DNA of 46,571 nt, taken from IMG/VR virus record IMGVR_UViG_3300021513_000005, positions 1 through 46,571 of that record; one strand, 5' to 3'. Positions within the stretch are counted from its first letter, which is position 1. The number at the start of each line of letters is the position of its first letter. Made by a program: the position numbers and the translations under genes. The stretch is from a virus. The notes under the pieces are model-generated. The model ran no database searches, was not told the DNA's origin, and worked only from the letters and a program-made list of their open reading frames with translations. Of the stretch, positions 13,824-40,613 are shown piece after piece.

Positions 13824-15050
13824 TTAAATCAAATCCTCAAATTTACCTATTCTCAAATCCCCCCTCACCTTCAGCCGCTTTCGTGGACCATCACGCTGCT
13901 CGACGTTCAGATAAATCAAAGGCTTAGGATTGTCCTCATGCCTTATTCGTGCCATATTATTCCATACGATTATACAATCAACGCCCTCTGCAATCCCACC
14001 ACTATCACGGAGATGCCCGACATTCGCTAATTTGCCTTCAGCATCGTTTGAGACTTGACATATAAATATTGCACTCTTATTAGCTCGTTTGGTAGCATCC
14101 GCCATTCGAGCCACCCCTTTAGAAATTTGTGTCGCATAATTCTCACTGCCGTTATAAGTCATCCGTTGAAGGAAATCAAGTAAGATGATTTCTTTGTCCG
14201 TTTTCTCAATTTCATAACAAACTTCATCAACCGTTAAGCCAGGGCGGGTATTAACTGTAATCAGCTTCTCATTCTCTTTAAACCACCATTGTGCTTCTTT
14301 AACAATTGCCAACTCCAGCTCACTCAATTCTCTCAACTTTATCTTTAAAGAATCAATCTCCACCAACCTTGACAAAATCCACTGGAACACTGATTTCGCT
14401 CCCATCTCCAAACTTAAGAATAACACTCCCACCTTACTGTTTACACAGTTCACTAACAAGTCGATGAAGAATTTCGATTTCCCCGATTTCTTTAATCCAC
14501 CCAGGACGTAGGTTTTCCCCTTTTCTATCCCGCCTGTGACATCGGTAAGTGATTGTAAATTCCATTTATGAAAAAAATCCTCCTTTGGCGAATTGAATGA
14601 TTCTAAATATTCTTGATACAACTGCGTCATCGGGCGGTGGAACTCCCCGTTCATAGGGACTGTAGTCAGCTCATTTAACCTCTCGATGATTTCAGATGCT
14701 TTTTGGGGCTTACTCTTTAAATGCAGGGCTAATTCTTTAATCTTTTTTTCTCTATAATGCTTCTGTAAACGTAACAAACAAGGCGTGATGTCACCCGTAA
14801 AATCATAATCCAGATTAAGCAAGTACGGTAAAGTCAAATCAGGATCAACCTTGATTACCGCCAGCATATCAACCCCTAAACCACTATTCTTTGCCTTCCA
14901 TAAAGCTCTGGCAACCTTTTTGTAGACTGGAAACCATTCAGGAGTAACACTAAAACGCTCAGCTAAATCCCAATCCTGATTTGTCATTAAGCGATTTAAG
15001 ACAACCGCCTCATCGTCCGCTGTCTGTAAGAAAGTATAATTTTCAGCCAT
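13824..15050 (-). CDS. DnaB-like replicative helicase
   Basis: 408 residues. The N-terminal 150 residues are helical, like the DnaB collar. The RecA-like domain has Walker A GGLKKSGKS (184-192), the SLEM motif near 213-216, and Walker B IILLDF (288-293), ending in an RIGKFEDL tail typical of DnaB proteins. It would be loaded at the phage origin by the initiator encoded two genes upstream and unwind DNA for the host polymerase. No ribosome site is evident, but the ATG overlaps the previous stop by eight bases, indicating coupling. Confidence 0.88.
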   Translation of the reverse strand: MAENYTFLQTADDEAVVLNRLMTNQDWDLAERFSVTPEWFPVYKKVARALWKAKNSGLGVDMLAVIKVDPDLTLPYLLNLDYDFTGDITPCLLRLQKHYREKKIKELALHLKSKPQKASEIIERLNELTTVPMNGEFHRPMTQLYQEYLESFNSPKEDFFHKWNLQSLTDVTGGIEKGKTYVLGGLKKSGKSKFFIDLLVNCVNSKVGVLFLSLEMGAKSVFQWILSRLVEIDSLKIKLRELSELELAIVKEAQWWFKENEKLITVNTRPGLTVDEVCYEIEKTDKEIILLDFLQRMTYNGSENYATQISKGVARMADATKRANKSAIFICQVSNDAEGKLANVGHLRDSGGIAEGVDCIIVWNNMARIRHEDNPKPLIYLNVEQRDGPRKRLKVRGDLRIGKFEDLI

Positions 15051-15531
15051 TATCAGTGTAGTTTAAATTTTTTAAGTTCTGTTCGCAGCGGTTTAGTTGC
15101 TTCGCTAAACGATCATATAGAACAACGTTGACTGTCGCAGCTAAATTCATGCAACCATGTGTTGGTATATAAACAATATCCTTACACCAACTTAATATCG
15201 ATTCATCAAGTGCACCATCCTCAGGGCCAAAAATATAAAATGCTCGCTCTGGATGTTTGTAACTATGTAAGGGTATCGCATTGTCTATTAATTCTACTGC
15301 AACAGGAACACAATCATAAGGAATAACTGATTTTAAATCTGTAACTTGCAGTAATGGTAAGTGTCTATATGCTTTCATCGTGTCAGTTGACGCTTTTTTA
15401 TATTTAAATTTCGTTCTATCACCAGATACAGCTACAAATGAAGCCCTATAAACACCAGCGGCTCTCAATACAGCACCAACGTTAACTAAATTTTTAGGAC
15501 TGAATAATCCAATAACGGCATATCCACGCAT
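15043..15531 (-). CDS. SpoU/TrmH-family RNA 2'-O-methyltransferase
   Basis: 162 residues with the three SPOUT motifs: N(L/V)N.G...R..G near residues 14-26, FGPEDGALDE at 101-110, and CMNLAATVNVVLYDR at 127-141, where the methyl donor is held in a knot. Length and motif set match TrmL-like tRNA enzymes. It probably methylates a ribose in tRNA (host, or the phage tRNA-like gene) or rRNA. It sits between initiator and helicase, a place where no RNA-modification gene is expected. AAGGAAAC precedes the ATG. Confidence 0.85.
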   Translation of the reverse strand: MRGYAVIGLFSPKNLVNVGAVLRAAGVYRASFVAVSGDRTKFKYKKASTDTMKAYRHLPLLQVTDLKSVIPYDCVPVAVELIDNAIPLHSYKHPERAFYIFGPEDGALDESILSWCKDIVYIPTHGCMNLAATVNVVLYDRLAKQLNRCEQNLKNLNYTDNG

Positions 15532-15543
15532 GAATGTTTCCTT

Positions 15544-16722
15544 TTAGTTAAGATATTTCCACTGTGCAGCAAATTTATTCCAATTCGCCTGCAGCGCTCG
15601 GATGCTGTAATCACCTTTCCAGTATGGATCATCCCGAAACCGAAAATCAGTTAAAAACTCATTAATGATTCCCTTAATTGTTTCCACATCTCCCTTGTAC
15701 ATCTTCAGCCAACCTTTGATGATTTTCCGCTCCATTGCATAACCCTGTACCATGTATTCGACTTCGTGGACTTCCTTGTATCGTTGACGGAAATAATCGT
15801 GGATGAGCTTGATATTGGGATCAGGCTTCTCTTTGGGCTTCTTGGCTTTTTTAAGTTTTTTCTTTCTTTTTTCAGCAAGGAGCTCTAAAAGATCATCTTT
15901 AACAGGAGGAGAATCGGTGGGATTCTCAGGCTGGTTAGTAATAGGGGAGTTTGTGGTTTTTTTATCAGTAGCGGGAAAAGTATCGACAAATAAAACTTTA
16001 GTTTTATTTAAATCATTAGTACTAATAGTACTATTTAATTTATTAGTATTATTATTATATATATTATATATATGCGGTACTTCTTCTTCATCGTTTTGCT
16101 CTCGCGTAACAATTGTTTGTGATTGCTGTTGTTTAAGTTCTTGATTTTCTATTGTGTTATCTTGTGTGTTTTGCCGTAACAATGCCGTTTCATTTGCGTT
16201 CCAATCCCGTTCCAATTGCGTTTCATTTGATTGAAATAAGTATTGTGTAAATTGTTGATTTTCTACTGAATTATTACCCCCATTTTTGCGTTTCATTTCC
16301 TGTTTCAATTGCGTTTCATTTGCGTTCCAATTATAGCTAATTGAGCTTTGGTAAGCCTCATAATTACATATCTTTATGTGCGTTCCATAAGCGTAACAAT
16401 TTATAGTGATATATCCTTCCTCTTCTAATTTATGTAAAATTCTAAATACTCTTGTTTTTGGTATCTCTTTTAATCTACCTCGCCGCATATATTTATTCTC
16501 CTCTGCAATATGAGATAAACTCGTAACAAGCTCTCCCCGTTTCACCTCGAATCCTGGATATTTTTTAGGCTGAGCGTGGGCATTACCTATAAGCCATAAA
16601 AAGATTTTTAATACATATAAATCTTCGTGCCAAATAGCGGATTCAAAAATTGATCGTGGAATAATAAAATAATCTCCGCCATTCTTTTGTGCCTCTAATG
16701 AATTAGATTTGTCCTTACTCAT
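15544..16722 (-). CDS. Replication initiator (O/DnaD-like) with embedded origin
   Basis: 392 residues. Residues 15-130 form a winged helix of the phage replisome-organiser type (FIIPRSIFESAIWHEDLYVLKIFLWLI...). Residues 130-250 are Asn/Gln-rich and low in complexity; they are encoded by the iterons and AT-rich tract described separately. A Lys-rich linker (KKKLKKAKKPKEKP) leads to a C-terminal domain (about 300-392) likely to contact the helicase. This architecture and the embedded repeats match lambda O. The gene follows the promoter at 16938 and the structured leader at 16749-16836; GGAAGGG lies 12 bases before the ATG. Confidence 0.8.
   Translation of the reverse strand: MSKDKSNSLEAQKNGGDYFIIPRSIFESAIWHEDLYVLKIFLWLIGNAHAQPKKYPGFEVKRGELVTSLSHIAEENKYMRRGRLKEIPKTRVFRILHKLEEEGYITINCYAYGTHIKICNYEAYQSSISYNWNANETQLKQEMKRKNGGNNSVENQQFTQYLFQSNETQLERDWNANETALLRQNTQDNTIENQELKQQQSQTIVTREQNDEEEVPHIYNIYNNNTNKLNSTISTNDLNKTKVLFVDTFPATDKKTTNSPITNQPENPTDSPPVKDDLLELLAEKRKKKLKKAKKPKEKPDPNIKLIHDYFRQRYKEVHEVEYMVQGYAMERKIIKGWLKMYKGDVETIKGIINEFLTDFRFRDDPYWKGDYSIRALQANWNKFAAQWKYLN
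16010..16073. other. Candidate DNA-unwinding element of the origin
   Basis: About 64 bases almost free of G and C inside the initiator gene, ending in a run of TATATATTATATATA. It contains the repeated AGTACTAATAGTACT. It lies downstream of the iterons in the direction of the gene, the same order as in the lambda origin. Confidence 0.65.
16105..16400. other. Candidate replication origin: phased iterons
   Basis: On the plus strand CGTTYCA starts at 16186, 16197, 16208 and 16219 (exactly 11 bp apart), and again at 16289, 16301 (as TGTTTCA), 16312 and 16323 (12, 11, 11). GTTTCATTTGCGTTCCAAT is repeated exactly at 16187-16205 and 16313-16331, and CAATTGCGTTTCATTTG at 16213-16229 and 16306-16322. 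CGTAACAAT occurs at 16105, 16175 and 16392. Further half-sites are at 16381 and 16538. Eleven-base spacing breaks the codon phase, so this is a DNA-level pattern. Confidence 0.75.
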
Positions 16723-16737
16723 CTTGACTTTCCCTTC

Positions 16738-16872
16738 CTAAAATACAAAACCCATCCTTTCTGGGGCGGAACCACACCGCAAAAAGCGGCTGACCTGGCT
16801 GAGCGAACCGGTCAAACTCCCCAGAAAAGATGGGTTCTGGATTCTAAGATTAATATTTTTTCTTGCGCTCAT
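16738..16872 (-). CDS. Leader micro-ORF, 44 codons, spanning the structured element
   Basis: ATG at 16872 follows AGAAGGGAACC, and the frame runs through the whole inverted-repeat element to TAG at 16738, ending RCGSAPERMGFVF. It may be a translated leader peptide that controls folding of the element, or a chance frame through an RNA; the ribosome site is fair. No homologous family recognised. Confidence 0.4.
   Translation of the reverse strand: MSARKNINLRIQNPSFLGSLTGSLSQVSRFLRCGSAPERMGFVF
16749..16836 (-). ncRNA. Structured leader element of the replication operon
   Basis: AACCCATCCTTTCTGGGG (16749-16766) pairs with CCCCAGAAAAGATGGGTT (16819-16836): 18 positions, with the single plus-strand mismatch becoming a G-U pair in minus-strand RNA. 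Inside are a CCGC/GCGG hairpin with a five-base loop (16777-16789) and a GACC/GGTC stem (16792-16813), giving a three-way junction. It lies between the promoter at 16938 and the initiator start at 16722. Likely a cis-regulatory RNA; no known riboswitch class was recognised. Confidence 0.65.
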
Positions 16873-16954: not shown

Positions 16955-17950
16955 TTATTTGTTATCACCAATGTGCTTTCGATAGCCATCCAGTACCACA
17001 TCCATCTTGACCCAGAACTCCGCTTTGTCTTCTTTCCACTCCTCATGTAGCTTCTTTGCTTTGCCATACGTAGCCTGCAGGCGCTTGCCTTTTAATTCGC
17101 TGAGCGTTGAAATGCCTTTTACCACCGAGCCATTGTCAGCTTCAAAACTTGATACCCATTCCAGCACATCACGGGCACGTATAACGTCGCCCTCGGTTAT
17201 CTCCAGAATCAAATCACCTAACTTCTGGCGGATTTCTTTTTCGGTTGTCTTGCCGTTTGTCTTCTCTGAAGTTTTACTTGAGGCTGGCTTTGTTTTTACT
17301 TGAGTTTCAACTGATTTAGAAGATTGCTGATCTTGTTCTACCCATGGCCAGGTATTGATCGGAGGATCGGTTTTTTTACGCCACAGCTTTCGTTTCTTAC
17401 CTGTCTCTTGATTAATACACCATACGCTCACAGCGTATTTATCAAGCCACTTTTTAACGAAGACAGGATCCCACAGATTCCAGGCAATCCCCAAATCCTT
17501 GCAGCACCGCACAAGGCAATTACTCTTTGCAGCCTCAGCCGCAGTGGCATAGCTCATTTTGGGATTAGTAGGAAAATATTCCTGCTCTCCGATCGTTTCA
17601 GCAACGAATTTACCGTTAATATACAGCGCCCCCTTGTAACACATAATATTCTCGTGAATCTCGATTCCCCGTGGTTGAATTGCCCACTTGCCAGGGCCAA
17701 ACACTTCATTCAATAGCTTCCGATACCGAATCTCAGGATAGTAAATTAATCCATCTGGCCTCAATTCAACGTCATCATCTTTTATTTCTTTGGCCAGCAC
17801 TTTTTTCTGTTCTTCTGTAAATTCTAATGTAGCAATCCCCTGATAAGGTTCAATTTTAGGGACAATCCCCTGTGAGGGCTCTTCCCTTTTCGGCTCTGGT
17901 AAATCTGTGTCTATTATTGCAGGCAGATTGTCTTTCTGTTTGTGTTCCAT
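16955..17950 (-). CDS. Mgm101/Rad52-like single-strand annealing protein
   Basis: 331 residues. The core (about 55-205) carries the pattern RYRKLLNEVFGPGKWAIQPRG ... MSYATAAEAAKSNCLVRCCKDLGIAWNLWDP ... LWRKK, which I recognise as the Mgm101-type Rad52-superfamily annealing domain. The C-terminal part is Lys/Thr-rich and probably flexible, ending in a helical region. It would anneal complementary single strands in phage recombination, together with the exonuclease and the RuvC-like resolvase downstream. AAGGAGG precedes the ATG. An 18-bp AT palindrome lies just upstream. Confidence 0.82.
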   Translation of the reverse strand: MEHKQKDNLPAIIDTDLPEPKREEPSQGIVPKIEPYQGIATLEFTEEQKKVLAKEIKDDDVELRPDGLIYYPEIRYRKLLNEVFGPGKWAIQPRGIEIHENIMCYKGALYINGKFVAETIGEQEYFPTNPKMSYATAAEAAKSNCLVRCCKDLGIAWNLWDPVFVKKWLDKYAVSVWCINQETGKKRKLWRKKTDPPINTWPWVEQDQQSSKSVETQVKTKPASSKTSEKTNGKTTEKEIRQKLGDLILEITEGDVIRARDVLEWVSSFEADNGSVVKGISTLSELKGKRLQATYGKAKKLHEEWKEDKAEFWVKMDVVLDGYRKHIGDNK

Positions 17951-39520: not shown

Positions 39521-40613
39521 CTCTGTTACCTCCCGTTAAAAACGGGCGGGCAAGTCATTTCTGCTTGCCTCTCGTATTTTCATACGAGTCCAGACTATCT
39601 CTTCGCTGATTTCTCAGCGCTCAACGTATAGTCGTTGGGGCTTCTCGCTCTTGTTTAATAGTCTTAATCTTTTTCACGAGTGCAAGTTCAGTATTAGAGT
39701 AAGGTCGATGCTTATTAAGCTGTCTTGATTCTATAAATTTACTTGTCAACTGAGCCTCTTGCCGTTTTGTTATCAAATAGGGTAATAATGCCGTAAGAAA
39801 CGGCTTGATTCTTGTACTACCAACCGCCGATACAGAATAGTAAGCTGGAGCTTTCCCTTTAGCTTTTCTATATGTTTTAGAGACTGAAAGACCTAAACCA
39901 TTTAATAATTCGCCTAAATATTCATACGTCGCCTGCGATGTTGTACCAATACATAATCGGGGAAGTAATTTGTGCTTATGGTCACGATAGATTCCTATAC
40001 TTCCATCTCCATCTACAAATCCAGCAAGCCACGCTAATTTATTAATTTTCCGATCCATCCCTAATGGCCGCCTTTCTGATTTTAAATCAGATATTTTACC
40101 TACAATCTCTAATTCTCGCTCTGTATACGGCGAATTATGTGGTTTAGACAAACGACTATCAATAAATTCAGCCATAAGATTTGCTTCTTCTCTTTTGATA
40201 ACAATAAACGGCAAAATTGTTTGAAGACAAGTATTACATCTTTTTATGCCTTGCACTCTTATTACATATTGTAATTTCCCCCTTCGGGGTCTGCGACAAT
40301 AGAGATAATGTCCTATTTTATGTTCCTTTAAAAGGTTGTCTATATGGATAAATGTTTGTGGACAAATTCCATTTATCCATATTCCAGGAATGTATCTCAC
40401 TGTTCGCTTTTCTGGTTTAGGATGAATTCCTAACGAACCATCACTATCAAGAAATCCACCCAACCAACTTAATTGATCAAGAGCTACTTTGCCTGCGGAT
40501 TGTCTCGATGTATTCATTGTTTTTACCTCAGAAGTAAATGAATCTTTTCAAGAGTTTCCCGCCATTAGTTGAGTTTAATGACTCCTATTACTAAAAGTCT
40601 CTTCGATCCGTAT
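39521..40613 (-). ncRNA. Group I self-splicing intron in the major capsid gene
   Basis: About 1,093 nt. The upstream exon ends ACTCT and pairs with GGAGT inside the intron (40585-40581), with the U-G pair at the splice site (P1). The core has AATGGCGGGAAACTC (P3-P4 region), GACTA (in CAACGACTATACG) and its partner TAGTC in GAAGAGATAGTC (P7), and a P8 hairpin GCTGA-GAAA-TCAGC. P9 hairpins follow, including CTCGTAT-GAAA-ATACGAG. The last intron base is G. Splicing here keeps the capsid frame. Boundaries may be off by a few bases. Confidence 0.82.
39621..40517 (-). CDS. LAGLIDADG homing endonuclease in the intron
   Basis: 298 residues with two LAGLIDADG motifs: LSWLGGFLDSDGS (16-28) and LAWLAGFVDGDGS (161-173), each ending in the metal-binding acid, so it is a monomeric enzyme with two half-domains. 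Each half is followed by the same pattern (IKRxEAxLxxxFIxSR, YxxxELxxVxKI), showing internal duplication. It would cut intronless capsid genes and spread the intron. TGAGGT precedes the ATG. Its end overlaps the P7 strand of the intron core. Confidence 0.9.
   Translation of the reverse strand: MNTSRQSAGKVALDQLSWLGGFLDSDGSLGIHPKPEKRTVRYIPGIWINGICPQTFIHIDNLLKEHKIGHYLYCRRPRRGKLQYVIRVQGIKRCNTCLQTILPFIVIKREEANLMAEFIDSRLSKPHNSPYTERELEIVGKISDLKSERRPLGMDRKINKLAWLAGFVDGDGSIGIYRDHKHKLLPRLCIGTTSQATYEYLGELLNGLGLSVSKTYRKAKGKAPAYYSVSAVGSTRIKPFLTALLPYLITKRQEAQLTSKFIESRQLNKHRPYSNTELALVKKIKTIKQEREAPTTIR

Follow-up and report, generated by a model that had tools for sequence, protein, structure and literature searches.

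A predicted phage replication origin with iterons at an 11-bp pitch inside its own initiator gene, and related arrays in homologous genes

Origins within initiator genes and the present locus

The origin of phage lambda lies in the middle of gene O, where iterons made of 19-bp inverted repeats stand beside an AT-rich region (PMC7466680). The replisome organizers TP901-1 ORF13 and Tuc2009 ORF16 (rep) bind repeats in their own genes, and these are shown origins (PMC8965321). In gene 18 of the Salmonella phage L, six imprecise 11-bp repeats, TGTCCAACGGA, form a proposed origin (PMC8022706). The phage L iteron core, TGTCCAAC, is also present, in two blocks, in the O genes of HK106, mEp506 and ST-87; in HK106 and mEp506 a helicase-type P gene comes next after the O gene.

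The window analyzed here is the whole of IMG/VR virus record IMGVR_UViG_3300021513_000005, 46,571 bases. Like phage L gene 18, it contains several 11-bp direct repeats within an initiator gene. The initiator of phage L, HK106, mEp506 and ST-87 is distantly related to the window family; the window differs from this group in motif (TGRAACG versus TGTCCAAC) and recognition helix, and has more sites and a longer linker. Tuc2009 rep shares with the window repeats at 11 bp (CAACCA, p=0.01), but has repeats also at 10, 20 and 25 bp. TP901-1 ORF13 is without an 11-bp signal, and neither of these two genes is followed by a DnaB-type helicase gene as in the window.

The preliminary description of this DNA had called the locus lambda-like. 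The likeness extends to iterons inside an initiator gene beside an AT-rich region. It does not extend to the iterons themselves, because those annotated in lambda O are 19-bp inverted repeats 20-24 bp apart (20/23/24) with no 11-bp signal, whereas the sites here are short, non-palindromic direct half-sites (TGNNACG) at an 11-bp pitch; a lambda-type array was rejected on pitch and symmetry. Lambda also provides a helicase loader (P), whereas the window has a helicase gene, and the initiator gene of the window is not directly followed by a lambda-style P gene. The suggestion that the binding mode may be new has lost weight, since 11-bp iterons were already reported in the O-like gene of phage L and are present in Tuc2009 rep; a one-turn pitch is therefore not new. 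The arrangement itself was known before in one Salmonella phage, and its commonness in related initiator genes is the addition made here.

The initiator gene, its repeats and the AT-rich tract

The genes around the array are as follows.

13824-15050, minus strand: DnaB-type replicative helicase gene (PF03796, E=1e-22; phrog_19, E=4e-35), the expected client of the initiator
15043-15531: SpoU-type RNA methylase gene, flanked by those of the initiator and the helicase
15544-16722, minus strand: initiator gene, 392 aa, with a winged-helix part (residues ~20-125), a long linker and a helical C-terminal part
16955-17950, minus strand: Mgm101-type single-strand annealing protein gene (PF06420, E=1e-57), next upstream of the initiator gene

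Downstream of the initiator gene the order is thus SpoU-type methylase, then DnaB-type helicase, and the Mgm101-type gene and the initiator gene sit in one replication/recombination module. Between these last two genes lies a 31-nt imperfect inverted repeat (84%; 16736-16766 and 16819-16849), possibly a terminator or a regulatory hairpin. Elsewhere in the window, a LAGLIDADG-type homing endonuclease gene was observed at 39621-40517.

The initiator protein matches the profile of phrog_2514 (DnaD-like helicase loader) with E=1.1e-12 over residues 17-167, and that of phrog_7498 with E=3e-7. The AlphaFold model, with a pLDDT of 84-97 over residues ~21-120, shows a winged-helix domain in which residues 89-101 form the predicted recognition helix and residues 105-118 the wing. 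Foldseek searches with this model returned generic winged-helix proteins only (E 0.01-0.08), and PDB sequence searches turned up regulators and unrelated proteins, all as weak matches. No close relative of the window initiator gene was found by blastn and protein searches, and in a late viral scan the window query itself was the sole match.

The linker-coding part of the gene houses the iterons and the AT-rich tract. The features read from the sequence are listed below.

16002-16071, no strand: AT-rich tract, 6 G/C in 70, downstream of the array in the coding direction; candidate DNA-unwinding element
16105-16111, minus strand: single TGTTACG box between block 1 and the AT-rich tract
16175-16225, minus strand: iteron block 1, five TGNNACG sites at an exact 11-bp pitch (16175, 16186, 16197, 16208, 16219)
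16289-16329, minus strand: iteron block 2, TGAAACG (16289), TGAAACA (16301), TGAAACG (16312) and TGGAACG (16323), at a pitch of 12, 11 and 11 bp
16381-16398, minus strand: outlying pair 11 bp apart, TGGAACG (16381) and TGTTACG (16392), in the winged-helix coding part
16095-16345, minus strand: segment with a probable partial in-frame duplication of about 100 bp behind both blocks, from peptide and DNA local alignment

The coding strand of the initiator gene contains 14 TGNNACG sites and one degenerate copy (TGAAACA, 16301), mostly 11 bp apart; those outside the two blocks are at 16105, 16381, 16392, 16522, 16538 and 16626. The eight half-sites of the preliminary description are confirmed in their places: written on the plus strand, they are CGTTTCA or CGTTCCA at 16186, 16197, 16208, 16219, 16289, 16312 and 16323, and TGTTTCA at 16301. 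To these are added CGTAACA at 16175 (in 11-bp phase with block 1), 16105, 16392 and 16522, CGTTCCA at 16381, CGTTTCA at 16538 and CGTGCCA at 16626. The longer form CGTAACAAT has three copies in the gene (16105, 16175, 16392). The nearly GC-free tract that had been described downstream also exists, and 16002-16071 holds the lowest-GC 64-base and 70-base stretches of the whole window.

The sites are strongly concentrated. Within the initiator gene CGTNNCA occurs 14 times on the plus strand and never on the minus strand, at 15 times the density seen elsewhere in the window. Codon-preserving shuffles of the gene gave a mean of 4.3 TGNNACG sites, against 14 observed, and a mean of 0.19 pairs of sites 11 bp apart, against 6 observed; none of 20,000 shuffles reached either the observed site count or the observed pair count.

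The peptides encoded by blocks 1 and 2 align in frame (NWNANETQLK...VENQ and DWNANETALLR...IENQ), with a local score of 70 for the duplicated segment versus a shuffled maximum of 46; the corresponding DNA score is 74 versus 42. Repeats of 17-19 bases had been noted earlier, and matches of 20 bases (ATTGGAACGCAAATGAAACG, coding strand) and 17 bases were indeed found. The simplest reading is that an iteron-bearing segment was partly duplicated in frame, and that the two blocks arose from this in part. The earlier statement that the repeats cannot come from a repeated peptide accordingly needs to be divided: it holds for the 11-bp pitch, as steps of 11 bp shift the reading frame, and fails for the blocks, part of which goes back to this duplication. 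A wider form of the same idea, in which coding constraint or tandem duplication in a low-complexity linker produced the repeats incidentally, draws on the duplication and on the repetitive linker peptide. The frame-changing 11-bp steps exceed all 20,000 codon-preserving shuffles and in homologues the pitch persists alongside different motifs and linker peptides (see below), which makes this explanation very improbable.

The 11-bp geometry in homologous initiator genes

Homologous loci, 67 in all, were collected by a tblastn-based scan that used a phrog_2514 relative. For 65 genes, that of the window included, all periods of 7-25 bp were tested against codon-preserving shuffles (significance at p<=0.0133). 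A period of 11 bp was significant in 49 of the 65, 22 bp in 39 and 12 bp in five, and 10 bp in none, in a sample that may be biased because the scan pattern NKNDKNDK lies just after the array. In the homologues the array almost always starts immediately after the winged-helix coding part. When genes were instead chosen by the N-terminal domain alone, the 11-bp signal had p<0.02 in eight of nine.

Named phages were taken from matches to the window protein or to its phrog_2514 relative, and Tuc2009 by accession. The 11-bp signal reached p=0.003 in HK106, SAP33, Lc-Nu, Orisa03, Pony, Vibrio 1.165 and EH-TP1. HB10c2 showed a weak signal (p=0.023) away from the linker, and in jenny 12G5, TP901-1 rep and lambda O the signal was not significant in the periodicity test. 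Among nine further named phages 11 bp had p<=0.02 in eight; the ninth, vB_LmoS_P7, had p=0.06 at 11 bp and p=0.003 at 22 bp. Prophages collected from bacterial genomes by wider profiles had p<0.05 at 11 bp in one of ten (phrog_2514) and three of seven (DUF1376). On these periodicities the 11-bp array is common in this winged-helix initiator family and not universal among phage initiators. In two prophage initiator genes, L395 and L394, the strongest period was 12 bp and 10 bp, respectively, not 11 (both p=0.003).

Two properties of the homologues accompany the pitch. The consensus motif differs between phages while the 11-bp geometry stays, so the check proposed earlier came out in favor of the repeats: genes chosen by their protein keep the geometry while motif and linker peptide change. 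In addition, AT content rises to 13 points over the locus mean at 60-100 bases downstream from the array start, an increase due in part to the richness of the linker there in Asn and Lys codons.

Viral contigs were also scanned at the DNA level, independently of protein, for four CGTNNCA at 11 bp. This gave 74 stretches, at least 38 of them in genes of initiator-type protein clusters, including DUF1376 and Phage_rep_org_N. A scrambled motif at the same spacing (four GCTNNAC) also found initiator genes, with iterons such as GTCCAGC; it was dropped as a clean negative control, as it had matched initiator genes with another iteron. The pitch is thus shared and the motif is not. With a 12-bp control, repeated peptides dominate among the matches listed, as 12 is a multiple of three, and some initiators are present too.

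The iterons could bind the initiator mainly as an autoregulatory or copy-control operator, with the working origin elsewhere. Bound iterons in coding DNA could block transcription, and the start of replication at the array is a prediction. On the other side, an origin would fit both the adjoining AT-rich tract, the extreme of the window, and the rise in AT content that homologues show downstream of their arrays; the repeats inside Tuc2009 rep are a mapped origin. An operator without origin function is accordingly held to be unlikely.

The cumulative GC skew, which had been proposed as a check, proved uninformative: the curve declines steadily between 5 kb and the right end of the window, tracks the gene strand and has no minimum at the array. 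Among the minus-strand genes a change-point in skew lies at 14.5 kb, both at all sites and at fourfold sites, about 1.7 kb from the array and not coincident with it; the coding-strand skew is 0.38 left of 15.5 kb and about 0.13 right of 17 kb. The direction of this step fits a nearby origin, but could equally reflect a gene-module boundary, which would look alike.

Recognition helix, motif and the proposed initiation

Motif similarity, scored register-free, was compared with protein identity in 58 non-redundant genes. It correlates with identity in the recognition helix when the rest of the domain is controlled (partial Mantel r=0.18, p=0.0002); among 10-column blocks of the domain the helix ranks first for motif similarity. 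The effect persists in pairs of <=40% identity (p=0.001) and <=30% identity (p=0.03), and without the largest helix class (p=0.002). Inside that largest class, with linker-peptide similarity also controlled, it is gone (p=0.61); this may be over-control, as the iterons themselves encode the linker peptide. The helix effect on the motif appears modest (partial r about 0.2).

Proteins of the largest helix class have R three residues past the key position. In subclasses of it, set after inspection, the residue at the key position goes along with the iteron: all 22 proteins with Q have AACMA, all three with R have GACCA, and three of the four with K have GGCA, GGGCA or GGGCCA. The window and the loci L071 and L011/L020 have a common helix, K-x-[RK]-V-x-R, and the common motif TGRAACG. 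It seems that the iterons and the protein region reading them vary together. That a rule holds for the family, with an 11-bp array right after the winged-helix part, its base sequence set by the recognition helix and a partial code readable, is put at roughly even odds. If it is true, sequence would allow prediction of origins and of the phages or satellites able to share one. Neither a family-wide 11-bp rule nor the helix covariation was found stated in the literature consulted, which included few subscription papers.

A host protein, and not the phage initiator, might bind the sites: TGNNACG is short, and 11-bp CGTTNCA arrays occur also outside initiator genes in bacterial genomes, e.g. of Prevotellaceae. 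The motif, however, varies between phages and tracks the recognition helix encoded by the same gene, and a host protein as the binder is considered extremely unlikely.

On the evidence of sequence and one structure model, the array is best read as a phage replication origin that sits within its own initiator gene, in the part coding for the linker, with a rough probability of 0.86. The earlier proposal, which placed an origin within the gene of the initiator and its iterons next to an AT-rich tract, is supported. Several lines of evidence point to it. The gene is of initiator type, beside an annealing-protein gene and one gene from a DnaB-type helicase; repeats and pitch lie far above the codon-preserving shuffles. 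Homologues show the 11-bp periodicity, the AT rise downstream and the covariation of motif and helix, and the CGTNNCA scan, made without reference to protein, landed in initiator-type genes in at least 38 of its 74 stretches. The mapped origin of Tuc2009 has 11-bp CAACCA repeats, and the 11-bp repeats of phage L were proposed as an origin. Counted against the origin are the missing 11-bp signal in jenny 12G5 and in TP901-1 rep, which is a mapped origin, the poor fit of the wider-profile prophages, the possible bias of the 65-gene sample, the modest helix effect and the position of the skew step off the array.

In such an origin, initiator monomers would bind successive 11-bp iterons through their winged-helix domains, all on one face of the DNA, each unit consisting of TGRAACG or TGTTACG and four spacer bases. 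The resulting head-to-tail complex would strain the helix, so that the AT-rich tract at 16002-16071 opens, and the C-terminal part of the initiator would recruit the phage DnaB-type helicase. The window adds one more predicted self-embedded phage origin, and the comparison brings the separate reports on lambda, Tuc2009 and phage L together as a regularity that can be tested in an initiator family: a conserved pitch, and a motif that changes as the recognition helix does. Should this be confirmed, sequence would suffice to locate origins, and origin specificity between phages and their satellites could be predicted and tested.

A scan of bacterial genome contigs gave almost no initiator arrays and mostly other 11-bp repeats. 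Imperfect 11-bp arrays of CGTTTCA/CGTTCCA were observed outside initiator genes, on several contigs per genome, in Prevotellaceae/Bacteroidales (loci L237, L261, L264, L275-L277, L279, L284 and L291) and in Clostridia/Lachnospiraceae (L250, L257, L258, L281 and L282).
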